From positions 143,953 to 207,952 of IMG/VR virus record IMGVR_UViG_3300023184_000027: a DNA stretch of 64,000 nt. The stretch is one strand, 5' to 3'. The DNA is from a virus. The notes under the pieces are model-generated. The model made no database searches, was not told where the DNA came from, and worked only from the letters and a program-made list of their open reading frames with translations. The position numbers and the translations under genes were made by a program. Below are positions 45,807 to 63,400 of the stretch, piece after piece. Each line of letters begins with the position of its first letter. The stretch's first letter is position 1.

Positions 45807-45812
45807 TTAATT

Positions 45813-46718
45813 ATGATACAATATAAAAAAATGTTTATTGCGGGTGCCAATGGGATGTTAGGTACCACTTTACAAAGTTTAACAGATACTTCTCAATATC
45901 TTCTAACAGATAAAGATATAGATGGTGATGTACGTTATTGCGACATTAGAGATTTAAATCAAACTTCTAATATTGTGAAAGAATATAACCCTGATATTAT
46001 TTTAAATTTCGCAGCGTTAGTTGATTTAGAGTATTGTGAACAAGAAAAAGACGATTGTTACTTAACAAATACTATCGCATCTATTAATTTATTTAATTTA
46101 GCTAAAGACCTTAATATACCATATGTGTTTATTAGTACCGCAGGGATATTCGGTAATGATAAAGAATTTTATACTGAAGAAGATATTCCACATCCATTAA
46201 GTGCCTACGGAAAAAGTAAGTATTATACAGAACAGTTATTACAAAATCAATCCTACGAAAAATATTGGATATTTAGAGCAGGATGGATGATGGGTGGAGG
46301 ACCGTCCAAAGATAAAAAATTCGTAAATAAAATTATGAATCAAGTTAAATCCGGTGTTAAAGAACTTAATGTTGTTGATGATAAGCTAGGTGTACCTACT
46401 TATACAAAAGATTTTGCAAATTCAATATTGAGACATTTATCAGAAGAACTTCCTTATGGGTTATATAATATGGTAAGTTCCGGTGAGGCGAGTCGATATC
46501 AAACGGCGGTTGAAATAAATGAATTTTTACAATTAGGGTTAAAAATTAATAAAGTAGGAAGTGATTTTTTTTCAAAAGAATATTCAGCGCCTAGACCTTA
46601 TTCAGAGAAATTAATTAATAAATCATTAAACAATTTACATAAAAATTATATGAGAAATTGGAAAGATTGTTTACATGAATATTTATCTGAATTCTATAAA
46701 AATAAAAAAATCACATAA
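45813..46718 (+). CDS. RmlD-like NAD(P)-dependent sugar reductase
   Basis: The 301-residue short-chain dehydrogenase has the dinucleotide motif IAGANGMLGTTLQ, an acidic end of strand 2, NFAALVDLEYCE, and an STAGIFG strand. Its catalytic Y-x3-K is YGKSK. The C-terminal RPYSEKLINKSL is typical of dTDP-4-dehydrorhamnose reductase relatives. It would finish a nucleotide-activated deoxy sugar. The rest of the rhamnose pathway (RmlA, B, C) is absent from the window. ATG at 45831 is an alternative start that places the glycine motif nearer the N-terminus. Confidence 0.78.
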   Translation: MIQYKKMFIAGANGMLGTTLQSLTDTSQYLLTDKDIDGDVRYCDIRDLNQTSNIVKEYNPDIILNFAALVDLEYCEQEKDDCYLTNTIASINLFNLAKDLNIPYVFISTAGIFGNDKEFYTEEDIPHPLSAYGKSKYYTEQLLQNQSYEKYWIFRAGWMMGGGPSKDKKFVNKIMNQVKSGVKELNVVDDKLGVPTYTKDFANSILRHLSEELPYGLYNMVSSGEASRYQTAVEINEFLQLGLKINKVGSDFFSKEYSAPRPYSEKLINKSLNNLHKNYMRNWKDCLHEYLSEFYKNKKIT

Positions 46719-46722
46719 TATT

Positions 46723-47385
46723 ATGAAAATAAAATTTACGATAAGTTCACGTAAATTAGGGTTTGAACAAACTTATCCTATTATAATTAAAAGTTTAATT
46801 GAAAATAATGTCCCACCACAAGACATATATTTTTTTGTTGGTGGGTACGATTCCATAACTCAAAGTATTACCGATGAAGGTGTTAATCTTATACAAGTTA
46901 ATCAAAATTCCATAGATTATACAGGTCTTATAGGTGTATTAGATTTAGATATTGTGTCAGATTATTGGGTTTTATTACATGACACATGTTATGTTGGACC
47001 TAACTTTTATAATCATATTATGTCTTACAATTATAATTATACCCCCGCCGTTGGATTAATTTTTGAGGAATGTTGTATGAATATTGGTGCTTATAGTTGG
47101 GAATATTTACAAAAAATAAAATCAAATTTATTAGAATACCGTAATACTGATTTTTCAGAAGAATCAATTCAGAAATGGAAAACAATTGGAATAGTTGATG
47201 AAGATAAGTTTTTATCTGAATATAATGTTGAAAATCATTATTGTGTATCATCACGAATACATAGTGGTCCTGTCGATATCTATAATACAGGTACACCTAG
47301 ACTAGTCGAATATTTTCCGGGTATAGATTTATACAAATTAAAGGCCAATTGGTACCGAAGAGAGATTTACGAATTAAGTGTATGA
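46723..47385 (+). CDS. Small glycosyltransferase-like protein
   Basis: From ATG 46723 the product is 220 residues. A longer in-frame start at 46675 lies inside the preceding gene and is less likely. KIKFTISSRKLGFEQTYPII at the start, IYFFVGGYDSITQS, and DYWVLLHDTCYVGPNF resemble the donor half of GT-A enzymes, with HDT in the place of the acidic motif. The stop overlaps the start of the galactopyranose mutase as ATGA. A glycosyltransferase role is inferred from pattern and context. Confidence 0.5.
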   Translation: MKIKFTISSRKLGFEQTYPIIIKSLIENNVPPQDIYFFVGGYDSITQSITDEGVNLIQVNQNSIDYTGLIGVLDLDIVSDYWVLLHDTCYVGPNFYNHIMSYNYNYTPAVGLIFEECCMNIGAYSWEYLQKIKSNLLEYRNTDFSEESIQKWKTIGIVDEDKFLSEYNVENHYCVSSRIHSGPVDIYNTGTPRLVEYFPGIDLYKLKANWYRREIYELSV

Positions 47386-48497
47386 TAAAATACGATTTTT
47401 TAATAGTGGGTGCGGGTCTTTTTGGTAGTGTTTGCGCTAGAGAATTAACAGATAACGGATATAAATGTTTAGTTATTGATAAAAGAGAACATATTGGTGG
47501 GAACTGTTACACTGAAAATAGAGATGGTATAAACATACATATGTATGGACCACATATATTTCACACTTCAAATGAACGAGTTTGGGAATACGTAAATAAA
47601 TATATTTCATTTAATAATTACATATGTTCCCCTGTGGCAAATTATAAGGGAGAAATTTATTCTCTACCCTTTAGTATGTGGACATTTTCTAAAATGTGGG
47701 GAATCTCTTCACCAAAAGAAGCGATGGATATTATTGAAAAACAAAGTATCCATATTCAAAAAACCCCATCTAATTTAGAAGAACAAGCAATCAAAACTGT
47801 AGGTATTGATGTATATAATAAATTAATCAAAGAATATGTTGAGAAACAGTGGAAAAAATCACCTACAGAACTTCCATCTCAAATTATAAAAAGATTACCC
47901 GTAAGATTTACATACGATAATAATTATTTTTTAGACAAATATCAGGGAGTTCCAATTGGGGGGTACACTAATTTTTTTAATAAATTACTTGTAAATATTG
48001 ATGTCAATCTTGGTGTTGACTATTTAAAAGATTCTTTACCTTCCCATAATTTCACTATTTATACCGGACCTATAGATAAATTTTATAATTATGAATTTGG
48101 GGAATTAGAATATAAATCCACAAATTTTGTTCATAAAAAAATGAACACAACAAATTACCAAGGAACGGCTATTATGTCATTCACCGACAAAGAAACAATT
48201 TATACCAGAATTATTGAACACAAACATTTTGAAAATTCTATATCAAATATTTCTTGGATTACTTACGAGTACCCAATAGAATATAACGTACATGAGGTAG
48301 AACCACATTATCCCGTTAATGATGATAAAAACACATTGATTTATCAAAATTATAAAAAAATGGCAGATAAAGAAAAATCGGTTTTATTCGGAGGGAGATT
48401 AGCGGAATATAAATATTACGATATGCACCAAGTAATAGAATCAGCCTTAAACACTGTTGATAAAATATTAAAATCAAAATATGGTAAATTCGTTTAA
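47382..48497 (+). CDS. glf: UDP-galactopyranose mutase
   Basis: From ATG 47382 (ATGA overlap with the preceding stop) the product is 371 residues, the usual length for Glf. It has the FAD-binding motif FLIVGAGLFGSVCARELT, CLVIDKREHIGGNCYTE, and HMYGPHIFHTSN, the conserved active-site segment with G-P-H-x-F-H-T. Near the C-terminus are YEYPIEYN and LFGGRLAEYKYYDMHQVI. The enzyme interconverts UDP-galactopyranose and UDP-galactofuranose. Its presence implies a galactofuranose-containing glycan, a sugar absent from animals but found in bacterial surface polysaccharides. An upstream in-frame start at 47349 exists but lies within the previous gene. Confidence 0.93.
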   Translation: MIKYDFLIVGAGLFGSVCARELTDNGYKCLVIDKREHIGGNCYTENRDGINIHMYGPHIFHTSNERVWEYVNKYISFNNYICSPVANYKGEIYSLPFSMWTFSKMWGISSPKEAMDIIEKQSIHIQKTPSNLEEQAIKTVGIDVYNKLIKEYVEKQWKKSPTELPSQIIKRLPVRFTYDNNYFLDKYQGVPIGGYTNFFNKLLVNIDVNLGVDYLKDSLPSHNFTIYTGPIDKFYNYEFGELEYKSTNFVHKKMNTTNYQGTAIMSFTDKETIYTRIIEHKHFENSISNISWITYEYPIEYNVHEVEPHYPVNDDKNTLIYQNYKKMADKEKSVLFGGRLAEYKYYDMHQVIESALNTVDKILKSKYGKFV

Positions 48498-49200
48498 TTT
48501 TTCTGAAATACTAAATTATGATTTTGTCTTTTTTTTAGAAAACGATAATATCTTTAGTAAAGAAGATTCCTTAAAGTTTGACGTACTATTGGACGATATG
48601 ATTTTAAACAATAAAAAATGTATTTTTTTTAAAACACCTATCCATACACAGGGAGATTTTAGATTTAGAGAAGGTGTGGACTCCTTTTATGAAACACAAT
48701 TATTTGGCGTAACACCTAAATATTTTAACGAAATTTTTAAATTACCAACAAATGAAAAAGAATGGGTTAATTTTAACATGGGATACACATTAGAAGAGTC
48801 TTTTTATTTAAAATTAAACAGATATGAAGACAACTTTCTAATTATACCAGACTACTCTTTTAACTTTTTTAAAGAAAGTGAAATTAATCTTATTAGGTCC
48901 GAATCATTTATATTAGAAGTTTTATATAATGAAAGTAACCCTTATTCACCAATATTATATTGTGAAAATAATTCAAAATATAATGAAATTAAAAAAATAT
49001 CAATTAACATTAACAATGTTATTGAAAATAATGAAATACTTCCTTCACAATGGTTCTACAAAGCACTATCTTTAGATGGTGATAAATTAACTATAACCGT
49101 TTTTGATGAAGAAGGTAATACAGATTTTATTAAAAAGGTTCATTTAATTGATAATAATTTAGAACAAATAAAAGAAAAAGGAGTAATAATATTTAATTAA
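48481..49200 (+). CDS. N-terminally truncated duplicate of glycosyltransferase-like gene
   Basis: The 239 residues align with residues about 106-337 of the 44793-45806 product. They share FLENDNIFSKED, KKCIFFKTPIHTQGDFRF and GYTLEESFYLKLN, and most positions are identical. The first hundred residues are missing. The ATG lies inside the end of the mutase gene in another frame, where duplicated sequence begins almost exactly. It may be an active shortened enzyme, since the acidic motif is kept, or a decaying copy. The conserved reading frame argues for selection or recency. Confidence 0.6.
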   Translation: MVNSFNFSEILNYDFVFFLENDNIFSKEDSLKFDVLLDDMILNNKKCIFFKTPIHTQGDFRFREGVDSFYETQLFGVTPKYFNEIFKLPTNEKEWVNFNMGYTLEESFYLKLNRYEDNFLIIPDYSFNFFKESEINLIRSESFILEVLYNESNPYSPILYCENNSKYNEIKKISININNVIENNEILPSQWFYKALSLDGDKLTITVFDEEGNTDFIKKVHLIDNNLEQIKEKGVIIFN

Positions 49201-49202
49201 TT

Positions 49203-49748
49203 ATGGCACACAAAAAACAACAAGAATTTTACGAAAGAGTAAAACAACATTTACCTCAATATTTTAGCGACGTAAAAGTACTAGATATAGGTTCGTTAGA
49301 TATTAACGGAAATAATAAACATTTTTTTAACCACCCATTTTATTATGTTGGGGTTGATTTAGCGGAGGGGCAAAATGTTGATGTTATTTGTCCGGGTCAT
49401 TTATACAATTCAGGGTTTTTATTTGATGTCGTTACATCATCTGAATGTTTTGAACATGATATGTATTATGCGAGAACACTACAAAATATGGTTAAACTAC
49501 TTAGACCAGGAGGATTAATGTTATTCACTTGCGCTTCAACAGGAAGACCTGAACATGGTACATTAAACGCAAATCCATTTGACGCACCATTTTTAGAGGG
49601 TATTGATGAAAAATGGTCTAACTATTATAAAAATTTAACAGAAGACGATGTTCGTTCAGCTATAGAAATTAATAATACTTTTGTAACATTTAACTTTGAA
49701 TATGAGCCAGAATCTTGTGATTTGTATTTTTGGGGTGTAAAAAAATAA
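49203..49748 (+). CDS. Class I SAM-dependent methyltransferase
   Basis: The 181-residue protein has motif I VKVLDIGSLDINGNNKHFF, the acidic end of strand 2 in YYVGVDLAEGQNVDVI, FDVVTSSECFEHDMYYARTL at motif IV, and LLRPGGLMLFTCAS at post-motif. This is the Methyltransf_11 pattern of small-molecule and sugar methyltransferases. It lies two bases past the truncated duplicate and before the heptosyltransferase-like gene. Sugar O-methylation is the likely role but is not proven. Confidence 0.85.
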   Translation: MAHKKQQEFYERVKQHLPQYFSDVKVLDIGSLDINGNNKHFFNHPFYYVGVDLAEGQNVDVICPGHLYNSGFLFDVVTSSECFEHDMYYARTLQNMVKLLRPGGLMLFTCASTGRPEHGTLNANPFDAPFLEGIDEKWSNYYKNLTEDDVRSAIEINNTFVTFNFEYEPESCDLYFWGVKK

Positions 49749-49756
49749 ATAATTAT

Positions 49757-51901
49757 ATGAGAATAACACAAGTAACTCCGGGTGTAATCCCAATACCCCC
49801 TAATGGATGGGGTGCCGTCGAAAAAATATTATGGTGTTACCATAACGAATTTAATTCTTTGGGACACGAATGCACAATAAAATATTTAAATGAGGCTTCT
49901 ACCGATAATTCGGATATAATACATATCCACATAGCTAATTTAGCTTTAGATGCTGCGGAAAGAGGGATTCCTTACATTTTTTCCTTACACGACCATCATG
50001 TTGTTCATTACGGGAAAGATTCGTTTAACTATCGCCAAAATTTAGAGGCAATACAAAAATCGGTAATTTCATTTTGTCATGCTGAATATTTAATTGACTA
50101 CTTTGACGGAACTGATAAATTATTTTATCTATCTCATGGGGTGGAAGTTGATTATTTTAAAGTTGCTGATTTATATAGGAAAGAACATAAATTGCTTTGT
50201 ATTGCAAATAATGGTATTGGTGGTGACGCATCGTTTGATAGAAAAGGGTTTAGGTATGCTATTGAGGCGGCTAAAAAATTAAATCTTCCAATAACAATCG
50301 CCGGACCAGAAAATAATAAATTATTTTTCCAACATCACCCTGATTTGTTAGAATATGAAAATTTAACATTATTATTAACCAACTTAAGTGAAGATGAAAT
50401 TTTAGAGTTATATAAATCACATTCAATATTTTTACATCCGTCAATATTAGAAGCTGGTCACCCAAATTTAACATTATTGGAAGCGGTCTCTTGTGGGTTA
50501 CCGGTTGTTGGAACTTATGAAGGGTCTCAAAAAATAGATGGGATGATTGTATCTGAAAGAAATTCTGATAGAGTTGCCGAATCAATATCTAAAATAATAA
50601 ATGAATATAAGAATTATGTTGATTTAACACAAAATAATAGAACCAAATTTGATTGGACAACTATCTGTAAAAGAATGGTTGATATGTATAAAGTTGTTAA
50701 TCTAATTAAAAAAGAATATTCTTCCGAAGAAACCAAAAATTTATTTATTGATAATTTTAATAATATTGTTAGGTCACCTATAATTACTCAAACAAAAACA
50801 GAAAGTGTTACACCAATTGTGGAAAAAATTAAACCAAATGTAAAATATAATTTTCATTTTGTTAATCAACCTTTTTTTGAAATATTAGGAGATAGCGATA
50901 AAAAATTTAATGTTGAATTTTACGATGAAGGTAATTTACATCATCACTCAGAATTATCGTCAAATATGTGGACTAAAGTAGGTAGAGAATACTTTACAAA
51001 TTGGTATATCAAAGTTTCTTGTGATAATGACATTGTTTTTGAATATAACCTTGATTTAACAAATAGGAGAGTTTTTATTTCTTTTGAATCTAGTTCATTA
51101 GGCGATAGTATTGCTTGGATTCCATATGTGTTAGAATTTAAAAACCAACATAATTGTGTTGTAATTGTATCAACATTTTGGAATAAATTATTTAAAAAGT
51201 CTTATCCCGAATTGGAATTTGTTGAGCCAGGTGCAACCATCCATAATTTATTTGGTTTATATAGAATTGGTTGGTTTGAAAACGAAACAAAAGAACCTTT
51301 TTATCCTAACACAATACCATTACAAAAAACGATAACAAATCTCTTAAAATTAGAACACACAGAAATTAAACCAACTCTTGACTTCGTACCTAAATCAAGA
51401 CCTATAGTTGAGAAGTATATTACGATAGCGGATGAATCAACCGCCGGATTAAAACTATGGAATAACTTAAATGGGTGGAAAGAACTTATTGAGTATTTAA
51501 CTAAATTAGGATATAAAATTATTAACATATCTAAACATGGTGGGAATTATAAAAATGTCGCAAAATTAAAAGACACATCAATAGAGAATACGATGAACTA
51601 TATTCACCATAGTGAATTTTTCATAGGATTATCAAGTGGGTTATCTTGGCTATCATGGGCGTTAGGTAAACATGTTGTTATGATTTCTAACTTTACCGAA
51701 TCTGACCATGAATTTACATCAAACTGTACTAGAATTACAAATGATTCTGTGTGTAATGGATGTTGGAATAAATCTGAATATCGGTTTGACCGTGGTGATT
51801 GGAACTGGTGTCCCGAAAATAAAGGAACTCCTCGTCAATTTGAGTGTCATAAATCAATAACCTCTGAAATGGTAATAAAACAAATACAACATTTATTATA
51901 A
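49757..51901 (+). CDS. GT4 fused to TibC/Aah-like protein O-heptosyltransferase
   Basis: The ATG at 49757 gives 714 residues. Residues 1-310 are a GT4 unit with NGWGAVEKILWCYHNEF, IAGPENNK and FLHPSILEAGHPNLTLLEAVSCGLPVV. A short beta module follows. Residues about 430-714 match the bacterial autotransporter O-heptosyltransferases (TibC, Aah): SFESSSLGDSIAWIPYVLEF, VSTFWNKLFKKSYPEL, GWKELIEYLTKLGYKII and FFIGLSSGLSWLSWALG. A four-Cys iron-finger follows at C666-x2-C669-x15-C685-x11-C697 with DWNWCPEN. That family glycosylates Ser/Thr on adhesin proteins, so the acceptor here may be a fibre protein. It ends at a terminator. Confidence 0.88.
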   Translation: MRITQVTPGVIPIPPNGWGAVEKILWCYHNEFNSLGHECTIKYLNEASTDNSDIIHIHIANLALDAAERGIPYIFSLHDHHVVHYGKDSFNYRQNLEAIQKSVISFCHAEYLIDYFDGTDKLFYLSHGVEVDYFKVADLYRKEHKLLCIANNGIGGDASFDRKGFRYAIEAAKKLNLPITIAGPENNKLFFQHHPDLLEYENLTLLLTNLSEDEILELYKSHSIFLHPSILEAGHPNLTLLEAVSCGLPVVGTYEGSQKIDGMIVSERNSDRVAESISKIINEYKNYVDLTQNNRTKFDWTTICKRMVDMYKVVNLIKKEYSSEETKNLFIDNFNNIVRSPIITQTKTESVTPIVEKIKPNVKYNFHFVNQPFFEILGDSDKKFNVEFYDEGNLHHHSELSSNMWTKVGREYFTNWYIKVSCDNDIVFEYNLDLTNRRVFISFESSSLGDSIAWIPYVLEFKNQHNCVVIVSTFWNKLFKKSYPELEFVEPGATIHNLFGLYRIGWFENETKEPFYPNTIPLQKTITNLLKLEHTEIKPTLDFVPKSRPIVEKYITIADESTAGLKLWNNLNGWKELIEYLTKLGYKIINISKHGGNYKNVAKLKDTSIENTMNYIHHSEFFIGLSSGLSWLSWALGKHVVMISNFTESDHEFTSNCTRITNDSVCNGCWNKSEYRFDRGDWNWCPENKGTPRQFECHKSITSEMVIKQIQHLL

Positions 51902-51902
51902 C

Positions 51903-51928
51903 AAAAAACCCCAATTAAGGGGTTTTTT
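51903..51928. terminator. Bidirectional intrinsic terminator
   Basis: A ten-base perfect stem (AAAAAACCCC and GGGGTTTTTT, loop AATTAA) lies between convergent genes ending at 51901 and 51928. Runs of A and T on both sides allow termination in both directions. Confidence 0.9.
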
Positions 51929-52803
51929 TATTGTTTTCTAATTGAGTCTATAATTTGATTTACATCAAAAATTTCATTTAAATCATTATACGGAATACTT
52001 GTCATATCTTGGAATAATAAATATTTTGAATAATGACTATGGTCTAACATAACCTCTTTTGTTGGAGTATTTGCCGTTATATTTGTATTGCTATGGTATC
52101 CAAAAACATTGGGGTTAGTTCCAACCCAAGTAACAACAGATGGAAGATTTAATGATGCTGCTATGTGCATAACGCTTGAATCAATTAACAATCGTTTTTT
52201 AGATAAACTCAATAAAATAGCAATACTTCTAAAATCATCTAACGCTTGTAAAGTGTCTTCATAAACAAATTGGTCTTCTCTTTTAATATGAAGAATCGCG
52301 TAATCATTTTTAAAATATCTAATCACTTCCTCTATTGTTGGTTGAGGTATATCACGAGTCCAACTATATTTTAAAGGTTGTCCGGCGGCACCACCATTTG
52401 GTTGGATAACCATAATTGGTTTATCTACTTTATAGAATTGTGTGAAGTATTGTTTTTCGGCTTCAGATATAAAAATTTCAGGTAATTCTCCTCTATAATC
52501 AACACCGAACATTTCACACCAAATCTGAATTAAGTGTTTGGATTCTGTAATATAATCTGATGTTTGATACGGTTCTCCAACAAACACTTTAGATTCTTGG
52601 TCCATAATGTATTTAGCGTAAATACCCGATAATTGACCGTGGTTTAATACCTTGTTCATATTTGGATTGTTAATAAAAACATCCGGATAACCTGACACGA
52701 CAATTATATAAGAGTCAGGATATTGTCGTCTAATTGCTTTTAATACTGCGGTTCCCATTACACTTTTTCCGAGACCACCTTCTATTGAAAATATTATATT
52801 CAT
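51928..52803 (-). CDS. GT9-like (ADP-heptose-type) glycosyltransferase
   Basis: The 291-residue GT-B protein begins MNIIFSIEGGLGKSVMGTAV. This matches the start of family 9 heptosyltransferases (GxGDxxxxT/V) with K in place of D. It continues with IIVVSGYPDVFINNPNMNKVL and a C-terminal donor-side IAILLSLSKKRLLIDSSVMHIAASLNLP, like the S/G-x-D-S-G-x-H-x-A segment. It would add a heptose or another sugar. As part of a separate minus-strand group with the kinase and sulfotransferase, it may act on the same acceptor. Confidence 0.72.
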   Translation of the reverse strand: MNIIFSIEGGLGKSVMGTAVLKAIRRQYPDSYIIVVSGYPDVFINNPNMNKVLNHGQLSGIYAKYIMDQESKVFVGEPYQTSDYITESKHLIQIWCEMFGVDYRGELPEIFISEAEKQYFTQFYKVDKPIMVIQPNGGAAGQPLKYSWTRDIPQPTIEEVIRYFKNDYAILHIKREDQFVYEDTLQALDDFRSIAILLSLSKKRLLIDSSVMHIAASLNLPSVVTWVGTNPNVFGYHSNTNITANTPTKEVMLDHSHYSKYLLFQDMTSIPYNDLNEIFDVNQIIDSIRKQ

Positions 52804-52815
52804 ATTTGTTTTTTT

Positions 52816-53262
52816 TTAATTGTTTAATATTTTTTTTATACATTCATTAACACCAATGTTTGTGGTGTCAATATTAATAAAGTTTTCCGTAGGTGATTCA
52901 TAGTCATCAACAAATAAATTTTCCCTACCTCTAATTTCGGATGTGTGAACATAAATCTCTGTAATTTTTCTACCCATCTTTTTCTTAAATTCTTCTCTTT
53001 GGTCTTTATAAGGAGATACTAATGAAACAACAACATGAACACTTTGAGAACTGAGATATTGAGACATTTGTTGAGCGAGTTGGATATTTTTTCTTCTACC
53101 CTCTTCAGAATAATCTTTATTATCAAATAAATCTCTAATATCATCACCGTCAATGTGGAAACATAATTCTCTTTTAAAATCAATTAGTGATGAACATAAT
53201 TCTTTTCCCAATGTTGTTTTACCGGCACCCGGTTGACCTGTTATCCAATATATGTTAGACAT
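52816..53262 (-). CDS. Adenylylsulfate-kinase-like P-loop kinase
   Basis: From ATG 53262 the product is 148 residues; a longer frame to 53343 runs into the sulfotransferase gene and is rejected. YWITGQPGAGKTTLGKEL is the Walker A loop. FHIDGDDIRDLF matches the DGD-x-R of APS kinases. DYSEEGRRKNIQLAQQMS matches their F-S-x2-D/G-R-x2-N-I helix, and VVVSLVSPYKDQREEF their I-S-P-Y/F-x3-R strand. APS kinase makes PAPS, the sulfate donor. It is shorter than the usual 200 residues and overlaps the sulfotransferase by eight bases, which supports a donor-enzyme pair. Confidence 0.75.
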   Translation of the reverse strand: MSNIYWITGQPGAGKTTLGKELCSSLIDFKRELCFHIDGDDIRDLFDNKDYSEEGRRKNIQLAQQMSQYLSSQSVHVVVSLVSPYKDQREEFKKKMGRKITEIYVHTSEIRGRENLFVDDYESPTENFINIDTTNIGVNECIKKILNN

Positions 53263-54076
53263 ACCCAAAATAATCGTAAAACCATTTATAATGATTCTTA
53301 ATATTGGTGGATAATTCATAACCCAATATATCAAGATAATCATCTGGCATTTTTTTAAATTCTTTTCTCAATACATGGTCACCAAATATACCGTGAACAA
53401 CATCATTTTCGTTTGTTACCTGTTCAATAGATTCAAAATTGTGTCCTTGATACATAGGTTGTCCAATGTAGTCGTAAAATCGTTTTATTTCCCTTTCAGG
53501 GTTATCCATTAAATCCTCGTATCTAATGAATAATATTTTAGAGTGAAGGTTTTGTTGGAAGATATCTTGTAATCTATCTACCGTCACACCAACCGGTGGA
53601 CCACTAGCCCAAATATCAACTCGTTTGTTTACAGTAGTTCCAACTAATTCGTTTGGGTTCTGTATATGACTTTCTTTGTGGGGATTTTTTCTAAAGTTCT
53701 TCTCCATAGAGGAGTAGACACATCTTAAGTCTCTAATCATACAAACAATCTTTGGGTCTTCTTTGAATAAACTCAATAGATTGTAGTTAATACCCCACCC
53801 TCGACTCTTGTCTAACACATAGGGTTTATCTGTTAATTCCTCAAAGAATCCTTGAATCCCTTTTCTACAAAAATTAATGAATGCCTTCTCCATTAATTTG
53901 GGGTCTTGAGCTCTAATTTCTTGAGAACCATTATAATGATTTTTTGCTCCGGATACCAACTCAATTAATCCTGATGTTGGGGTTACGTAAAATTGGGGAT
54001 TTTGTCCGATTAAATTTTGAAATAGGGTTGAACCTGCTCTAGGTAGAGAAGAGTTAAAAAAGATTATCTTATCCAT
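53255..54076 (-). CDS. Sulfotransferase
   Basis: The 273-residue protein has the 5'-phosphosulfate loop FFNSSLPRAGSTLFQNLIG near the N-terminus. The 3'-phosphate binding region is CMIRDLRCVYSSMEKNF, and RYEDLMDNPEREIKRFYDYIG is typical of PAPS-dependent sulfotransferases. It would move sulfate from PAPS onto a hydroxyl of sugar, lipid or tyrosine. The overlap with the APS-kinase-like gene links donor synthesis to transfer. In the context of the sugar clusters, a glycan acceptor is the most likely. Confidence 0.88.
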   Translation of the reverse strand: MDKIIFFNSSLPRAGSTLFQNLIGQNPQFYVTPTSGLIELVSGAKNHYNGSQEIRAQDPKLMEKAFINFCRKGIQGFFEELTDKPYVLDKSRGWGINYNLLSLFKEDPKIVCMIRDLRCVYSSMEKNFRKNPHKESHIQNPNELVGTTVNKRVDIWASGPPVGVTVDRLQDIFQQNLHSKILFIRYEDLMDNPEREIKRFYDYIGQPMYQGHNFESIEQVTNENDVVHGIFGDHVLRKEFKKMPDDYLDILGYELSTNIKNHYKWFYDYFGYV

Positions 54077-54160: not shown

Positions 54161-55102
54161 TTAAAAGGCAATTATCATAACTATACCGTCACCACCGTCA
54201 CCACCTTTTCCGCTAGTTCCGTTATTGGCGTTTCCTCCGGCTCCACCACCACTTCCTATTCCACCTTTTCCTCCGTTACCAGCCACACCACCGGATGTAT
54301 AGGCGTTTCCACCTCCTGCGCCTCCTACTGAGAAAAATGGTTTCCAAGATGTTATACCATCGGCACCGTTTCCACCTGTAGTGCTTCCACCAACACCACC
54401 TATAATAGATGGAGTTAATGACGTAATTGATGAAGTAGAGATAAGACTTCCACCGTTAAAAGCGGTTGCTGTTCCATTATAAGGCCCTCCACCACTCCCT
54501 GAATGTAATAAGAATGAATTTCCAAAAATATTAACATCAGGGACGGCTGTTGAAATCCCTCCGGTTTGAGAATTAGTTCCTTGTGTAGATATAAAATTAG
54601 TGAGACCAATTAAATAATTATTGGATAAACTAGATGCAGGTGTACCGGCACCTGACACGTTTGTTCCTCCATTCGTGGAACCAAGACCACCAAAAAAACT
54701 AACGGTACGAGCCGAAGTATTTTGAGAATCAAGTTGGGATGCTAAAAACACACCTGAAGATTCTCCCGCATTTCCGGCATTGAACCCTGTCGTCGGGGTT
54801 GAAACACCAACACCACCGATACCACCTTTACCTACTTTTATGTATAAAGTATTAGGGATTAAATTTGAATTAATTAATGCTCTATTAATTGAGCCAGTCC
54901 CACCGCCAAAATTATTTATTGTATTTACATTTAAAACCGCATTATTTCCTGAAGCTCCACCACCACCACCATCAATACTAATTATATAGATAAAACTGCA
55001 GTTTCTTGGTTTTTGCCAAGTTTGATAACTAGTAGAACCTGCGTCAGCATAAAATATTTTTATGTCTTCTTGTGAGTTTGGTATATGAAATAAATCTATC
55101 AT
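54161..55102 (-). CDS. Glycine-rich adhesin-like fibre protein (1)
   Basis: The 313-residue protein begins MIDLFHIPNSQEDI, then TWQKPRNCSFIYIISIDGGGGGASG. The rest alternates strands with Gly-rich turns (GGGTGSINRAL, KVGKGGIGGVGV, GKGGDGGDGIVMIIAF at the end). Such glycine-rich domains act as receptor-binding tips in phage tail fibres, as in the T-even gp38 adhesins. The two following genes are paralogues with the same N- and C-terminal signatures. Three tandem copies suggest alternative or heteromeric tips. Confidence 0.75.
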   Translation of the reverse strand: MIDLFHIPNSQEDIKIFYADAGSTSYQTWQKPRNCSFIYIISIDGGGGGASGNNAVLNVNTINNFGGGTGSINRALINSNLIPNTLYIKVGKGGIGGVGVSTPTTGFNAGNAGESSGVFLASQLDSQNTSARTVSFFGGLGSTNGGTNVSGAGTPASSLSNNYLIGLTNFISTQGTNSQTGGISTAVPDVNIFGNSFLLHSGSGGGPYNGTATAFNGGSLISTSSITSLTPSIIGGVGGSTTGGNGADGITSWKPFFSVGGAGGGNAYTSGGVAGNGGKGGIGSGGGAGGNANNGTSGKGGDGGDGIVMIIAF

Positions 55103-55105
55103 AAA

Positions 55106-55975
55106 TTAAAAGTTTGTTGTTATCATAATTAGTCCGTTACCTCCTTTTCCACCATTTCCTGCAGTTGTAGTTCCTGCCCCACCACCGCCACCACCGCATC
55201 CTGGTGCTCCGTTTCCTCCATTTCCTCCTGTAGTACCACCACCTCCACCTCGTCCTCCAAATAGGAAAAGTGTTGGCGTATATAATATAGCACCGTCAGA
55301 ACCTCTTGTATTTACTGGTGTGGCAACTATGGATGGAAATAGTGGTGCCGAACCGGCGTTAAATCCAGACCCAGTAGATGTTCCACCACCACCACCAGCG
55401 GCAATTGTAAAAGATGCATAAGATGTACTAGTTGCCGCCGCTGTTGAGCTAGCAGTACCTGCCAACCCAACACTCGCAATAAAGGTTCCTAAATTTAAAA
55501 ACACACCATTTGATGTGGTCGCAACAGTTTCTGCAAGTCCCCCAACAACTGATACGGTTGAACCGGCAGAACCTCCTGTTGCGGCAACGGCACCTGAAGT
55601 ACAAACTATGTTGGAAATGTTTGAGATATCCGGTATTAGACACACATATGATTTTGTTGCGGAACTTCCTGCTGTGACTACACCTGAAGCACCACCTATA
55701 CCACCAGCACCACCAGTTCCTGGTAGGATATATAGAATATTGGGAAGTAAAGACGCTTGTACAACTAATTTTACGTAACCACCTGTTCCACCACCCGCAC
55801 CACCACTTCTAGCTGCGGCTGCTTGAAATCCTCCTCCTCCTCCGGCACCAGCACCGAGAACAAAGAAAGATACTATTTTAGCGTTTCTTGGTTTTACCCA
55901 AGTTTGCCAAGAACCAGGGTTTTGGAATATCTGCGTATCACTACTACTATTTTGAAAATATGATAAATCTAACAT
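55106..55975 (-). CDS. Glycine-rich adhesin-like fibre protein (2)
   Basis: This is a 289-residue paralogue of its neighbours: MLDLSYFQNSSSDT, TWVKPRNAKIVSFFVLGAG, then GTGGYVKLVVQASLLPNILYILPGTGG. A variable central region follows, and a final GNGGKGGNGLIMITTNF. The conserved KPRN followed by a hydrophobic strand and Gly tract defines the family. Central regions differ far more than the ends, as expected for receptor-contacting loops. Confidence 0.75.
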   Translation of the reverse strand: MLDLSYFQNSSSDTQIFQNPGSWQTWVKPRNAKIVSFFVLGAGAGGGGGFQAAAARSGGAGGGTGGYVKLVVQASLLPNILYILPGTGGAGGIGGASGVVTAGSSATKSYVCLIPDISNISNIVCTSGAVAATGGSAGSTVSVVGGLAETVATTSNGVFLNLGTFIASVGLAGTASSTAAATSTSYASFTIAAGGGGGTSTGSGFNAGSAPLFPSIVATPVNTRGSDGAILYTPTLFLFGGRGGGGGTTGGNGGNGAPGCGGGGGGAGTTTAGNGGKGGNGLIMITTNF

Positions 55976-55976
55976 A

Positions 55977-56849
55977 TTATGAAATTACTGTTATTATGAC
56001 TAATCCGTCACCTCCGTCACCTCCGTTACCGGCAACAACAGAACCGGCACCTCCACCACCGCCTCCACAGCCGTACCATCCATTACCTCCTGTTCCACCT
56101 GTTCCTGTAGTAATTCCGGCACCGCCTGCTCCTCCTGTCCCACACAATGTAGAAAGATTTCCGTAACCAGAATCACCATTTTGTCCCGCAGTCACACCAC
56201 CATTCACTTGAGAAGTTAGTATAGATGTTGCTGATGTTATATTTCCTCCTGTTCCAAAGACAGAAGCTGTCTTTCCTCCACCACCAGCACCACCCATAAC
56301 AATGTTTGTTCCTAAAGCGGCTTGAGATGTTCCGTTAGTACCTGTGTTGGCACCACCAGCTGACCCAGCAACTCCAGCAACTGAAGTAAATAACCCTAAA
56401 CCTGTAAATGTAGGACTTACAGCGATAGTAGGGGCGGTTCCACCAACTCCTGCTGAGGTTCCTCCATTTCCACTACTTTGAGACGACTTACATAACGTTA
56501 ATGTTGAACCATTATCAACAGACACGTAAGATATGCTACCAGAACCTCCGGTACCATTTGATACTATTCCACCTTTCCCACCTTTCCCAACAAATATATA
56601 TAGAATATCTGGTAATAAAAAGGCTGGTACAATCATTCTCACCATTCCCGCCGAAGCACCACCACCCGCACCAGTTACTCCCGCAGCACCAATAGTACAG
56701 TGTCCACCACCTGCTGCACCACCTAAACAAAATATCTCTAAAAATTTTGCATTACGAGGTTTTTGAAATGGTTGATATTCACCTGTCGCATAAAATGTAT
56801 AGGTAGATTGTGTATTTGTATTGGTTGTTATGTTAAAAACATCTATCAT
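55977..56849 (-). CDS. Glycine-rich adhesin-like fibre protein (3)
   Basis: The 290-residue protein is the first translated of the three paralogues: MIDVFNITTNTNT, PFQKPRNAKFLEIFCLGGA, then GMVRMIVPAFLLPDILYIFVGKGG, ending in GNGGDGGDGLVIITVIS. Its start overlaps the preceding stop as TAATG, coupling it to the short protein upstream. It is closest to copy 2 in the segment LLPxILYI. Confidence 0.75.
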   Translation of the reverse strand: MIDVFNITTNTNTQSTYTFYATGEYQPFQKPRNAKFLEIFCLGGAAGGGHCTIGAAGVTGAGGGASAGMVRMIVPAFLLPDILYIFVGKGGKGGIVSNGTGGSGSISYVSVDNGSTLTLCKSSQSSGNGGTSAGVGGTAPTIAVSPTFTGLGLFTSVAGVAGSAGGANTGTNGTSQAALGTNIVMGGAGGGGKTASVFGTGGNITSATSILTSQVNGGVTAGQNGDSGYGNLSTLCGTGGAGGAGITTGTGGTGGNGWYGCGGGGGGAGSVVAGNGGDGGDGLVIITVIS

Positions 56850-57028
56850 TATTCAGCCCAAGTTGGTTTAGGTGGATTAGAGTCCACAACATATCCCTCA
56901 ATAGGAAAATCGGGAGATATAAGAGTATTTCCGTTTAAATCAGTTAACCTAACTAAATTCCCATTACTTATTTCTTGATACGCTTGAAAATCCCATCCAA
57001 GAGTATATTGTATTAAAATATATTCCAT
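56849..57028 (-). CDS. 59-residue protein between fibre genes
   Basis: This short frame starts MEYILIQYTLGWDFQAYQEI and ends PPKPTWAE. It is joined to both neighbours by TAATG overlaps, which strongly supports that it is translated. The middle has a strand pair (NLVRLTDLNGNTLI). Its function is unknown. Its size and place suggest a small chaperone or cap for the glycine-rich fibre proteins. Confidence 0.7.
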   Translation of the reverse strand: MEYILIQYTLGWDFQAYQEISNGNLVRLTDLNGNTLISPDFPIEGYVVDSNPPKPTWAE

Positions 57029-57444
57029 TAGTATTTTCCTCCAATAACACTTACAAAGTAACCCGCAGCAACTGTTGTACCAAGAGTCACATTTAGTTTA
57101 TATCCCGCGGGTAAGGCAAAGTTAAGAGGTAATTCATACACGGCTAATGCTGCCACCTCGGATAATGTTGTCGCTGCTAAAGTAATCTCATCAAATAATA
57201 TGTTATTTCCTGCCGTACTATTTGCTGACCCATTATTAATGAATACCCTTGCCACGGTGGCGATATTAGTCCCCGCTGCTCTGAATCTTATTCTTTGAAC
57301 AAACCCTCCGTTTGTGGCGTCTGCTGTGAAGCAAGTAAGAACAGTACCTGTTCCGTCTTTTGCGGTGTTAAGTGTTGTTATTGCTGTTGTTCCCCATTGA
57401 ACATCTCCAGCTAATGAGAAGATAGGTGCGGTATTTGCTGCCAT
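57028..57444 (-). CDS. Small beta-rich structural protein
   Basis: The 138-residue protein is Ala/Thr-rich and begins MAANTAPIFSLAGDVQWG. Strands include FVQRIRFRAAG, ARVFINNGSAN, AVYELPLNFALPAGYKLNVTLG and a final GYFVSVIGGKY. It reads as a jelly-roll-like capsid or fibre domain. It lies between the collagen-like fibre and the glycine-rich genes, so a fibre-assembly or decoration role is likely. The promoter-like AATTATAAAAATAAC upstream is only a weak match to the phage motif. Confidence 0.6.
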   Translation of the reverse strand: MAANTAPIFSLAGDVQWGTTAITTLNTAKDGTGTVLTCFTADATNGGFVQRIRFRAAGTNIATVARVFINNGSANSTAGNNILFDEITLAATTLSEVAALAVYELPLNFALPAGYKLNVTLGTTVAAGYFVSVIGGKY

Positions 57445-57488
57445 TTTGTATTGTTTTTATTTTAAATTTAGTGTTATTTTTATAATTG

Positions 57489-60400
57489 TCAAAACATATT
57501 TTGAAATCCTGTTGAAAATACTTGTAATAATCCTAATGTAAGAATAGTTGGAGCTGGACTTGTTCCGCTTGTTCCCGCAATTCCTGATGTTCCTGATGAA
57601 CCACTACTACCAATACCACTAGTTCCTGATGAACCACTATTACCAATACCACTAGTTCCTGAAGAACCACTACTACCAGGTGTTGTTGTAACTAATAAAC
57701 CGTTTGAACCAACACAGATTGAACATCCTGATGAACCTGTGAAACTACAAACAGATAAATCATTAACAAATGTAGTACAACTTCTGTTTGCTGTGATACA
57801 ACTACCTATAACATTAGCGTGTTGAAATGATGCCGATATTGTGTTATTTCTACCACCAAGTATTGATGAATAAACTGAACAAGCGCTATTACATAAACCA
57901 CCGGCAATCGTTGATGAACATCCACAAGTTATATTACAAGCACCACCACCAATAAACATAAAACAAGCTCCTGAACTGGCTGAAGTACAGTTTTTATAAC
58001 CACCTGATATTGTCGAACAACCATTGTTACCAACATTACTATTACATTTTCCACCGCCAATTGTTGAATTAGAACCAGAAGCAGTATTTGAACTACCACC
58101 GCCAATTGTTGAACTACTACCACCAGCAGTATTTCCAAGACCTCCACCAATTGTTGAACAAGCTCCCGTTGCACAGTTTCTATATCCACCACCGATGGTT
58201 GATAATCTACCAGCATCACAACAAGTGGTTGTTCCTGTTAAGTCCCCTGTTATTGCGTTAAATGTTCCACCTGATGTATTGTGTCCAATACCTCCACTGA
58301 TTGTGGCACCTAAAGAACAACATTCGTTTGTTGGTGATTGAATAACATTTCTTTGTCCACCACCAATAAATGAGAATCTAGCGGTTATTGTATTACAACC
58401 TCCACCAACAATTGTTGATGTACATCCAGTTGTGACATTACAACATCCACCTCCAATAACTGAATAATTCGATGATGTAGTATTACAAAATCCTCCACCA
58501 ATAACTGAGTTGCCTCCAGATACTTTATTACCACATCCACCCCCGATTGCAGAACCACTTGAATTTATGCAAATACAATTAGTACATCCTCCAGCGATAG
58601 TTGTAAAGGAACTAGTGTCAATAGAATTAGATTTACCACCACCAATAAACATACCAACTCCACCCGAACCCCCACAAGCTATATTACAACAACCACCACC
58701 AATAGTTGACGAACAATTATTACCTGTTATAATGTTACAATAACCACCACCAATTGTTAATAAAGCGGCTCCACACGATTTATTACAATAACCACCACCA
58801 ATAACAGAGTTACTGGTGCTAATTAAATTTTTTTGACCACCGGCGATAACTGAACAAGCTCCTGTCACACAGTTTCTATATCCACCACCAATGGTTGATA
58901 ATTTACCAGCATTACAACAAACAATTGTCCCTGATAAAATACCTGTTGATGAGGTAAATGTTCCTCCTGAAGTATTATGTCCAATACCTCCACCGATTGT
59001 TACACCTAATGAACAACATTCGTTTGTTGGTGATTGAATTATATTTCTATGACCACCGTTTATATTTGAGAATTTTGAGTTTGTTATATTACAATAACCA
59101 CCAAGAATTGATGAGCTATTACCTGAAATGCTATTTCTATATCCACCACCAATAAATGACCTATCGGAAAATGTATTATTTGATTCACCACCACCAATAG
59201 TTGAAACATTACCTATTGTGCAATTATTACAACCACCTCCAATAAATGAGAAATTACAACAACTAACGTTACTCTTACCACCAACAACTGATGACAAACA
59301 ACCTTTTGAGCAGTTTCCATAACCACCACTAATTGTTGAACAATTTCCGCAACTAACATTACATTGACCACCACCAATAAATGAACTTTCACCAATAACA
59401 GTATTAGACTGCCCACCAGCTATGGTACCTAAACCATATGGTACACATATTTTATTATTGTATCCTCCACCAATGGTATTACTACCAACTGGGTTAAAAG
59501 TACCTGTATTTGAGAAAATAACATTACAGCAACCACCACCAATAGTATTGGGTCTAATTGCGTAGCTAGAATTATCAACAGTAAAATTACAAATAATATT
59601 TCTATTACCACCAACAATTGTTGAGTATTTGGCAACTACAGTGTTATTTTCACCACCACCAATAAATGATGTCTGCCCTGATGCTATATTACCTTGACCA
59701 CCAACAACCACAGATGCGTATCCAAATGATGTGTTACGACGATATCCAATATTAGAATTGGGTTTTCCACCACCAACAAATGAAAATGTTCCAGATGCTA
59801 AATTTTGAGAACCTCCGACAACTGTTGAAAAACATGCTGATGCGGTATTTCCGCTACCGGCTAATGCGGCTGAAAAACATGATGTTGCGGTATTACCAAC
59901 ACCACATCTAATGGTTGAGTTAACACCTGTTCCGGTAATGATTATACTATCACCACCTCCACCTGAGCTTGTTCCGCTAGACCCAGATATACCTGATGTT
60001 CCAGCCACTCCATTTGCCCCTGATGTTCCTGAAGAACCAACACCACTTGTTCCACTAGAACCTGCAATACCTGATGTTCCTGATGAACCACTTACGCCAA
60101 TACCACTTGTTCCACTAGAACCTGCAATACCTGATGTTCCTGAAGAACCACTTACGCCAATACCACTTGTTCCACTAGAACCTGCGGCTCCTGATGTTCC
60201 GCTTGTTCCTCTAGTACCAGACGCTCCTGACGTTCCTGAAGAACCACTATTACCAGTACCACCTGATGTTGTTACCAATAAACCATTTGCTCCAACACAG
60301 ATTGAACATCCTGATGAACCTGTGAAACTACAAACAGATAAGTCATTTACAAATGTTGTACAAGCTCTGTTTGCTGTTATATTACTACCAATAATATTAG

Positions 60401-63400
60401 AATTTGTAAATCCTGACGATATTAAATTACTTTTACCACCAAGTATGGATGAATAAGTTGCGTAAGCACTATTACAATAACCACCACCTATCATTGAATA
60501 ATTACCGTAAGATTTATTCACACGACCACCACTAATTGTTGAAACCCGTCCTTTTGCAATATTACCGACACTGACATATATATCAGTATACTCTGGGTAA
60601 CCTGAATTTCCGGTACATACACATCCACCACCACCACCTATTGTTGAGTAATGACCACAAGAAACATTATTACTACCACCACCTATTGTTGAATAACTGC
60701 AGTTGGTGATATTTGAATCACCACCGCCAATTGTTGAAAAACTACAACAAGCTCTATTTAAAACACCACCACCAATTGTTGAATTAGTACCAGATGCGGT
60801 ATTTGAACTACCACCGCCAATTGTTGAACTACTACCACAAGCAGTATTTCCAAGACCTCCTCCGACTGTTGAGGCTAAATAAGATGAGGTGTTATCTGCA
60901 CCCCCAGCAACTGTTGAGAATATGACTCCGGAAGCGGTGTTACCTCTACCACCACCAATTGTTCCCCCATAACCAGATACAGAGTTACCTTTACCACCGA
61001 CTATTGTTGTATAATAACCACAAGAAACATTATTACGACCACCACCAATAAATGAAAAATTACATGACGCAGTGTTTCCACTACCGGCTAATGCTGCAGA
61101 ACAATTTCCTGATGCAGTATTTCCAACACCACATCTCATAGTTGAGTTAACACCTGTTCCGGTAATGATAATACTATCACCACCTCCACCAGAACTTGTT
61201 CCGCTTGTTCCGGCAATACCAGCTGCTCCTGAAGTTCCTGAAGAACCTGTTGCTCCTGAAGAACCTGTTGCTCCTGAAGAACCCGATGTTCCACTTGCTC
61301 CGGTACCACTTGTTCCGCTAGAACCTGTTGCTCCTGAAGAACCTGTTGCTCCTGAAGAACCAGATGTTCCACTTGCTCCTGATGAACCTGTTGCTCCTGA
61401 AGAACCTGAAGTTCCGCTTGCTCCTGATGAACCTGTTGCTCCTGAAGAACCATCGGCACCACTAGAACCTGAAGTTCCGCTTGCTCCTGATGAACCTGTT
61501 GCTCCTGAAGAACCACTTGTTCCACTAGAACCATTCGCACCTGATGTTCCCGAAGAACCGCTAGTTCCTGATGTTCCGCTAGTTCCCGAATTTGTTGGTG
61601 ATAATGTTGTTGTTACTTGTCCAATAGTACTATCATTGAAGTACATTGTAAGCACTTTAGTGTAAGGTGAGTCGATAGCGATACCATATAATTCTATAAG
61701 AATTCTATCTGACGGCACGACATTAGTTGCCGAAATAGGTATTGAAAATAAATATAAGGTAGGGACAAGGTGACTATCTATTGGAACAGGAACGGGAGTA
61801 ACAGTAGATAACAACGTAGTTGTCCCTCCAGTATGATATGCGTATATTCTCGCATATATTCCGTGGTCGGCATTTGTTGCGGTAGTATTAGCGTATAATT
61901 CAAAATTCCAATTCCCACCCACAATATTACTAATATTGGGGTCATTATTAGGTGTTATGAATGTCCCAAATAATTGTGCTGTTGCCCCTGATAATGTTTG
62001 AGATAAAGATGTTTGTCCGCTAATACTAATTACCCGGTCTAAATCATAATATGATACACTTCCAGCACCTTGATTAGGTATATTTCTATTGAAGTAATAA
62101 ACTAATCCTGTTGAAAATCCGTTAATACCGCTAGACCCTGAAGAACCATCGGCACCACTAGAACCAGATGTTCCGCTTGCTCCTGATGAACCTGTTGCTC
62201 CTGAAGAACCATCGGCACCACTAGAACCAGATGTTCCACTTGCTCCGCTAGAACCTGTTGCGCCTGAAGAACCTGTTGCACCTGAAGAACCTGATGTTCC
62301 ACTTGCTCCCGATGTACCTGAACTACCACTTATTCCAGAAGAACCTGAAGTTCCGCTAGAACCACTTGTCCCAGAAGAACCATAAGTCGCTCCAAGAGTT
62401 GTAATAACATAAGAATAATAGGTAGTACCTTCCGTATACCAAGTAACGTCACGATTACTTGTACCTTGGTAAACCACATATATTTTAACAATCATTCTGT
62501 CTGATGGTAGAATGTAGTATGATGACGGTATCACTAAATCTACATACACTTCAACAGGGATTGATACTCCTACCCATCCAATAATCGTTTGATTGGTTGA
62601 TATTACTGTTCCGTAACTTGTCCCCCCACTATTAGCTAACTCTATTGTACAAAAAACATCAGTATTATCATTCACATTATTTTTTAACATATGTAAATGG
62701 AATCGTTGACTTCCTGGTGGAATAACGTTAACACCTAATCCTGATGCGTCGGTGATAAATTCTTGAACTAACACAGGAGTTAAACCATTTGTTGTTTTCA
62801 GAATAGTTTGAGTTGATGCAGTTGTTGGTAATGTACCGATTTGTTTGTAAGATAATGGTGTTTGTGTTACGGATTGATTAAAATAAAATATTTGTCCTGA
62901 CGCAACACCACTTATACCGCTAGTTCCTGAAGTACCGGCGGTACCATCTGAAGAACCTGATGTTCCGCTGGTACCACTTGAACCTGAAGTTCCGCTTGTT
63001 CCACTTTCACCTGAAGTTCCGCTTGTTCCATATGTTTGACCACTTGAACCTGCTGAACCGCTTTCACCTGATGAACCACTTGTTCCACTTTCACCTGATG
63101 AACCACTTGTCCCACTTTCACCTGATGTTCCACTTGTACCACTTTCTCCTGACGAACCACTTTCTCCTGACGAACCACTTTCACCTGAAGAACCGCTTGT
63201 TCCACTTTCACCTGAAGAACCGCTTGTTCCACTTTCGCCTGATGTTCCAGAAGTTCCTTTAGTCCCTGATGAACCAGAAGTTCCGCTAGACCCTGAAGAA
63301 CCTGCTGCTCCTGACGCTCCATCAAGATTTGTTGTCCAAGATAAAAAAGTTCCAGTACCATTTATAACGGTTACGGTAACTTGTAAATCACCTGTTGATG

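Follow-up and report, generated by a model that had tools for sequence, protein, structure and literature searches.

Can a phage genome encode both the formation of PAPS from APS and the transfer of sulfate to an acceptor? The question is raised by two overlapping genes, one for a short APS-kinase-like protein and one for a sulfotransferase. They are located in a 64,000-nucleotide window (the whole stretch of DNA that was analyzed), which comprises positions 143953-207952 of a 207,952-base IMG/VR virus record. The record contains a match to phage tail-sheath proteins (PHROG 23, E=3.7e-54) and a family-B DNA polymerase (Pfam), and it therefore belongs to a phage, as the first-pass annotation had assumed. 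The same annotation had proposed that the gene pair could make PAPS and transfer sulfate. Because the kinase adopts the fold of APS kinases and its APS-site residues are conserved, the sulfotransferase is genuine, and the pairing is kept in many phages, this appears to be the best reading of the sequences.

The sulfotransferase and the lid-deleted kinase

Both open reading frames, first annotated at 52816-54076, were confirmed there on the minus strand. They are followed by a gene for a GT9-like protein.

53255-54076, minus strand: sulfotransferase, 273 aa (Sulfotransfer_3, PF13469; Pfam E=1e-14)
53255-53262, minus strand: 8-base overlap ATGTCTAA of the kinase start and the sulfotransferase stop (from the sequence; near relatives are laid out alike)
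52816-53262, minus strand: short (lid-deleted) APS-kinase-like protein, 148 aa (Pfam, AlphaFold2 fold, dN/dS)
51928-52803, minus strand: GT9-like glycosyltransferase (weak Pfam match to Glyco_transf_9, 21.0 bits against a cut-off of 22)

The eight-base overlap noted at the outset is exact when the kinase starts from the ATG at 53262 (MSNIYWITG...), where its relatives also begin, and the kinase reading frame ends at 52816. In one relative (L014), the overlap of the two genes is four bases long. A kinase reading frame of 175 residues starting from 53343 was rejected, as it only prolongs the frame mechanically into the gene of the sulfotransferase. The GT9-like reading frame begins 12 bases past the kinase stop, and the gene is probably an operon partner of the pair. 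Both the kinase and the sulfotransferase are under purifying selection, with dN/dS of about 0.1 relative to near relatives (0.08-0.10 for the kinase; 0.09 for the sulfotransferase against relative L002).

The sulfotransferase scores 55.8 bits against Sulfotransfer_3, for which the cut-off is 27. It shares this domain and motifs of the PAPS-binding type with PAPS-dependent sulfotransferases (PF13469), from which it differs by its membership in a phage-specific family, PHROG 27463 (E=5.5e-36), which has no known function. Two putative binding motifs were delimited by conservation in 20 sequences.

54026-54049, minus strand: SLPRAGST, residues 10-17, putative 5'-phosphosulfate-binding motif
53708-53734, minus strand: RDLRCVYSS, residues 115-123, putative 3'-phosphate-binding motif

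Seven of the eight residues of the first motif (S10, L11, P12, R13, G15, S16, and T17) are invariant in 20 diverse phage sulfotransferases, as are R115, D116, R118, and S123 of the second. Homologous proteins annotated as sulfotransferases in the cyanophages S-SKS1, S-SRM01, and S-SCSM1 of Synechococcus have 26-29% identity to that of the window, and the phage collection that yielded them gave no match closely related to the short kinase. A Sulfotransfer_3 protein also occurs in OM43 phages, where the function of phage sulfotransferases was called unclear (PMC10580990).

The kinase matches the Pfam family APS_kinase (PF01583) with an E-value of 2.4e-19 and 70.3 bits, above the cut-off of 21.1. 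Its score against NCBIfam apsK (TIGR00455), 73.6, is below the cut-off of 138.7. An AlphaFold2 model of the protein, built from 47 phage sequences, has a pLDDT of 92.5, and each of the 50 best PDB fold matches listed is an APS kinase or includes an APS-kinase domain, with TM scores of up to 0.90. The elements of the kinase are the following.

53215-53238, minus strand: P-loop GQPGAGKT, residues 9-16 (G9, Q10, P11, G14, and K15 invariant in 47 phage kinases)
53143-53151, minus strand: DGD motif, residues 38-40 (D38, G39, and D40 invariant; common to canonical APS kinases)
53086-53100, minus strand: GRRKN, residues 55-59 (R56 and N59 are APS-site residues by alignment)
53008-53016, minus strand: SPY motif, residues 83-85 (P84 invariant; S/A and Y/F flanks as in canonical APS kinases)
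52900-52935, minus strand: shortened lid EIRGRENLFVDD, residues 110-121 (from the SPY..R to YExP spacing)

R56 and N59 are invariant in the phage kinases and are the same in the canonical APS kinases that adjoin the nucleotidyltransferase NT, which is described below. R43 and R89 are also invariant among the aligned phage kinases and are found in full-length APS kinases too. The R, N, and SPY residues contact APS in the structures of APS kinases. The fold, the P-loop, and the DGD, R..N, and SPY positions are all shared with APS kinase (CysC; the APSK domain of PAPS synthase; PDB 1m7g, 5cb8, 8a8h), whereas the substrate lid of the phage protein is shorter by about 18 residues.

That the kinase is short had been remarked before, and the missing part is this 18-residue stretch of the lid. 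The spacing from SPY..R to YExP is 29-32 residues in the phage kinases, compared to 48-50 in the canonical enzymes. The loss is common to all 55 phage relatives examined, and the RDxKGLY portion of the lid motif RDxKGLY..FTG is present in none of the 55 phage kinase sequences. The lid of the Entamoeba enzyme contains residues R418, K421, and F435, of which K421 and F435 are regarded as important for APS kinases (PMC13213808). The counterparts of this lysine and phenylalanine are gone from the phage kinase, and an arginine is kept nearby. The kinase is thus a protein of the APS-kinase fold that has kept the putative APS-site residues and lost the substrate lid; since the lid is lost, the activity of such an APS kinase needs proof.

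A recurrent phage cassette and the probable source of APS

The two genes recur in phages as parts of a cassette composed of the sulfotransferase, the short kinase, a small HxGH nucleotidyltransferase (NT), a DUF2061 membrane protein, and a GT9-like glycosyltransferase. Close relatives of the kinase were found at 13 IMG/VR loci, and relatives of the sulfotransferase at 164 IMG/VR places, the 80 best of which were retained. Neighbors were counted at 63 phage sulfotransferase loci that were found by the sulfotransferase alone and extend at least 4 kb to both sides. Within 5 kb of the sulfotransferase, the raw counts are 46/63 for the kinase, 38/63 for NT, 37/63 for DUF2061, and 58/63 for the GT9-like gene, where the numbers refer to contigs, some of them near-duplicates, and not to independent events. 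In phages of the L019 type, the kinase and NT are located together, away from the sulfotransferase. Literature searches that combined DUF2061 with sulfate, a phage APS kinase with a sulfotransferase, or cysC with a sulfotransferase among auxiliary genes returned nothing on the phage cassette.

In a nodulation cluster of Mesorhizobium, DUF2061 (L114:3980-4213) has a sulfotransferase gene on one side and cysD-cysN on the other, which suggests that the protein has a role in sulfation. This rhizobial cluster for Nod-factor sulfation resembles the phage cassette in its combination of sulfotransferase, DUF2061, and sulfate activation genes; however, it contains canonical CysD and CysN with a CysC domain where the phages have NT and the short kinase. 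A small domain is encoded by its own gene before NT in some phages (L024:13468-13791), and in others it forms an N-terminal extension of DUF2061 (L014:10818-11261); no Pfam family was found for the fused form. At one locus (L102:1329-1939, G013), NT is split over two reading frames and the adjoining DUF2061 gene is disrupted, which reflects either decay or a sequencing error.

The 208-kb record of the window, which is possibly incomplete, contains no match to PF01747, to the CysD/CysH family PF01507, to PF01467, or to NT, and a canonical ATP sulfurylase in this phage was rejected on these grounds. Because neither a canonical sulfurylase nor NT is found in the record, the phage probably draws APS from its host, barring a source encoded in some part of the genome that the record lacks. 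The first-pass annotation had reasoned that a phage carrying the kinase may not depend on the host PAPS supply, and had pointed to the sequence outside the window as the place to look for an ATP sulfurylase gene. The record yielded no such gene, and the independence from host supply does not hold as worded. NT and PF01467 were not found in the record of a 322-kb relative either, which is possibly incomplete as well; a distant DUF2061 gene is present there.

We propose that the pair and the adjoining GT9-like gene probably encode the final steps of a phage sulfation pathway. Sulfate would be converted to APS by a host enzyme in the phage of the window, and by NT, from sulfate and ATP, in most of the relatives. 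The short kinase would phosphorylate the 3'-OH of APS to form PAPS, from which the sulfotransferase would sulfate the acceptor. The gene identities, the fold, the conserved residues, the recurrence, and the selection are shown by the data and speak for this pathway, as do the sulfur-gene contexts of DUF2061 and NT outside phages; we infer the substrates, the reaction of NT, the source of APS, and the target of sulfation. The deletion of the lid, the missed NCBIfam apsK cut-off, and the lack of NT in the record of the window and in that of the 322-kb relative count against it, as do the resemblance of NT to NMN adenylyltransferases and a diverged branch of NT-linked kinases, both described below.

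The kinase of the window might instead be inactive, or might only boost host PAPS for the sulfur metabolism of the host, and the sulfotransferase would then work on its own, supplied with host PAPS. The missing NT and the separation of the kinase from the sulfotransferase in L019-type relatives are consistent with such a role, but the dN/dS of about 0.1, the intact P-loop and DGD motif, and the gene overlap kept in near relatives make it distinctly unlikely.

NT as a candidate ATP sulfurylase

NT is a protein of about 131 residues with the motifs GRWQPxHxGH and ISATKIR, and is assigned by Pfam to CTP_transf_like. One phage NT (L013) scores 23.0 against the ATP-sulfurylase family PF01747, just below the cut-off of 24.3, and two other NTs tested have no match to it. 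The solved structures nearest to NT, both by sequence and by fold, are NMN adenylyltransferases, with TM scores of only 0.5-0.6.

The gene neighborhoods of NT extend beyond phages. On haloarchaeal plasmids of Natronococcus, Haladaptatus, and Halostagnicola, a protein annotated as CysC consists of an N-terminal full-length APS kinase and a C-terminal NT (L111:8533-9390, L112:8536-9390, L113:8539-9390), with a sulfotransferase gene upstream and a gene of the YqcI/YcgG family also near. The upstream sulfotransferase and the NT family are shared with the phage relatives, whereas the haloarchaeal kinase retains the complete lid and is joined to NT in one protein. In GTDB genomes, NT adjoins a gene for an APS kinase or an APS-kinase-like protein, or forms a fusion with it, in Marinimicrobia, Bacteroidota, Acidobacteria, Omnitrophota, Nomurabacteria, SAR11, SAR86, and euryarchaea. 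Related NTs of Marinimicrobia are paired either with the short kinase (L118-L120 and L122) or with the full-length APS kinase (L121). Nitrospiraceae (L123:6725-10471; L197:3-2673) have a sulfite-reductase-like gene and CysH, followed by NT, and genomes with this CysH-NT operon also have a Sat-type (PF01747) gene elsewhere. In one Flavobacteriales genome, an APS kinase-NT pair is a few genes away from CysQ.

The resemblance of NT to NMN adenylyltransferases in its best PDB sequence and fold matches, together with a fusion of NT and kinase in a Stenotrophomonas phage that adjoins a NADAR gene, would fit a pair for NAD salvage, formed by an NMN adenylyltransferase and a nucleoside kinase, next to which the sulfotransferase is incidental. 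We consider this very improbable and rejected it as the main reading, since the fold of the kinase is that of an APS kinase, with APS-kinase domains in all of the 50 best fold matches listed, and the contexts of NT are sulfur genes. Furthermore, NT forms one protein with a canonical APS kinase in haloarchaea, and it scores below every NCBIfam cut-off for NMN adenylyltransferases (50.6 versus 127; 43.9 versus 181.2).

It is also conceivable, if unlikely, that the short kinase, with NT in the relatives, acts on some other nucleotide-activated compound, and that the "sulfotransferase" moves a group other than sulfate. The CDP-phosphoramidate kinase of Campylobacter, which is APS-kinase-like, is a precedent for such a change of substrate. 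The deleted lid and the NMNAT-like NT are in line with it, as is the altered APS site in a branch of diverged, non-DGD kinases linked to NT in SAR11, SAR86, and the Stenotrophomonas phage DLP6 (L133, L138, L170, L173, and similar; L115, L116). Residue N59 is replaced by Q in this branch, and Y85 by T or N, and no sulfur neighbors were found in the loci read. We set the branch apart on account of these differences in the APS site; pairs of NT and kinase may not all act on a single substrate in nature. On the other side, the DGD, R..N, and SPY positions of the phage kinase are as in the canonical enzymes, short kinases linked to NT alternate with full-length APS kinases, and there is a repeated link to the sulfotransferase, CysH, CysQ, and DUF2061, the last of which sits with cysDN elsewhere. 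SAR11 retains such a gene, and the substrate of the branch may differ.

The assignment of NT as a sulfurylase, on which the first step of the proposed pathway would depend in the relatives, was compared with the distribution of known sulfurylases. Its NMN adenylyltransferase-like fold and sequence count against the assignment, as does the presence of Sat or CysDN in some NT genomes. PF01747 is present in three of 40 NT genomes (two Nitrospiraceae and one SAR11), and one Diapherotrites NT genome has both CysD and CysN, so we rejected the notion that NT excludes the known sulfurylases as a rule. Among 14 searched genomes in which NT sits with a lid-bearing APS kinase, none has PF01747, and no CysD-like match in them is as strong as that of a true CysD. 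The only strong PF01507 match in these genomes is CysH (L200), and the haloarchaea among them have only a distant CysD-like protein.

In a sample of 99 Bacteroidia, 49 have an APS kinase above the cut-off, accompanied by CysD in 46 and by Sat in two. The lone genome of the 49 without CysD or Sat contains NT beside the APS kinase, CysQ a few genes further on, and no PF01747 match. A blind prediction of NT in the CysD-less Bacteroidia was right in one of three genomes and failed for G116 and G153, in which Sat is located between the APS kinase and CysQ; Sat and CysQ were both recognized there by inspection of the sequence (e.g. QTRNPIHRAH, GRDHAG). Because the NT-bearing exception is one genome at the center of the sample, chosen for its NT and possibly incomplete, the survey supports the assignment of NT as an ATP sulfurylase and does not prove it.

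NT is, judging from its neighbors and distribution, a candidate for a third kind of ATP sulfurylase beside Sat and CysDN, and might fill that role in organisms that have an APS kinase and lack a recognized sulfurylase. We give an even chance to the broader hypothesis that many phages carry a compact sulfation pathway, composed of NT as an NMNAT-like ATP sulfurylase, a lid-free APS kinase, and a sulfotransferase, which sulfates their own or host glycans. NT would then be an unrecognized third ATP sulfurylase of Bacteroidota, Marinimicrobia, haloarchaea, and others, and the phage of the window would have kept the last two steps only. Phage sulfotransferases are already known, and the proposal for NT is more novel than the gene pair of the window. 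Our literature search, which left many subscription journals outside, found no paper on an NMNAT-like ATP sulfurylase or on a phage APS kinase with a sulfotransferase.

Surrounding glycan genes and the possible target of sulfation

The gene pair and its GT9-like neighbor are flanked by a divergent block of glycan genes on one side and by a region encoding Gly-rich and collagen-repeat proteins on the other.

42043-51901, plus strand: divergent glycan gene block (Pfam matches)
42043-44793 and 49730-51901, plus strand: glycosyltransferases of the block (Pfam)
45813-46718, plus strand: RmlD-like protein of the block (Pfam)
47349-48497, plus strand: UDP-galactopyranose mutase of the block (Pfam)
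49203-49748, plus strand: methyltransferase of the block (Pfam)
54161-63869, minus strand: Gly-rich and collagen-repeat region, candidate virion acceptors (Pfam Gly_rich_2 and Collagen; putative acceptor role)
54161-55102 and 55106-55975, minus strand: two Gly-rich-domain proteins (Gly_rich_2 confirmed for both)
55977-56849, minus strand: third similar Gly-rich reading frame (resemblance to the two Gly_rich_2 reading frames)

The proximity of the glycosyltransferases, the RmlD-like protein, the UDP-galactopyranose mutase, and the Gly-rich and collagen proteins suggests that the acceptor is probably a glycan. It would most likely be a sugar that the nearby glycosyltransferases of the phage produce or attach, carried by fiber or adhesin proteins of the virion or by the host surface. 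A reading that overlaps with this one keeps the pathway as proposed and places sulfate on a small molecule or on a polysaccharide of the host surface, and not on a virion glycan; we regard it as a serious contender, a little short of an even chance. Modules of this type are known to sulfate host surfaces or signal molecules, such as haloarchaeal glycans and the Nod factor, and the Mesorhizobium genes are part of a Nod cluster. The location of the pair between the collagen-repeat and Gly-rich fiber region and the glycosyltransferase block points instead to the virion, by proximity only.

The giant viruses Moumouvirus australiensis and Cotonvirus encode SAT/APS kinase and sulfotransferase in glycan gene clusters (PMC10117803). 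They are similar to the phages in that virus-encoded sulfate activation and a sulfotransferase adjoin glycan genes. However, the giant virus enzyme is a predicted bifunctional SAT/APS kinase, whereas the phages have the lid-deleted kinase and, in the relatives, the NMNAT-like NT. The initial view was that sulfation of sugars by phage genes would be a novel modification; with these giant viruses, virus-encoded sugar sulfation has some precedent.

The linkage described here gives phage sulfotransferases a donor pathway and an operon that is open to assay. Sulfated glycans are a possible surface trait under phage control and could affect adsorption, superinfection, or defense.

Two further features of the window concern its structural proteins. 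The three Gly-rich reading frames are arranged in tandem at 54161-56849 and encode 289-313 residues each, and they are followed by the gene of a 2126-residue protein (57489-63869, minus strand) with eight collagen-repeat stretches, which is likely a fiber. In a 1266-residue protein (1488-5288), the best tail-sheath match is confined to the C-terminal 210 residues, which implies a large extra N-terminal part.
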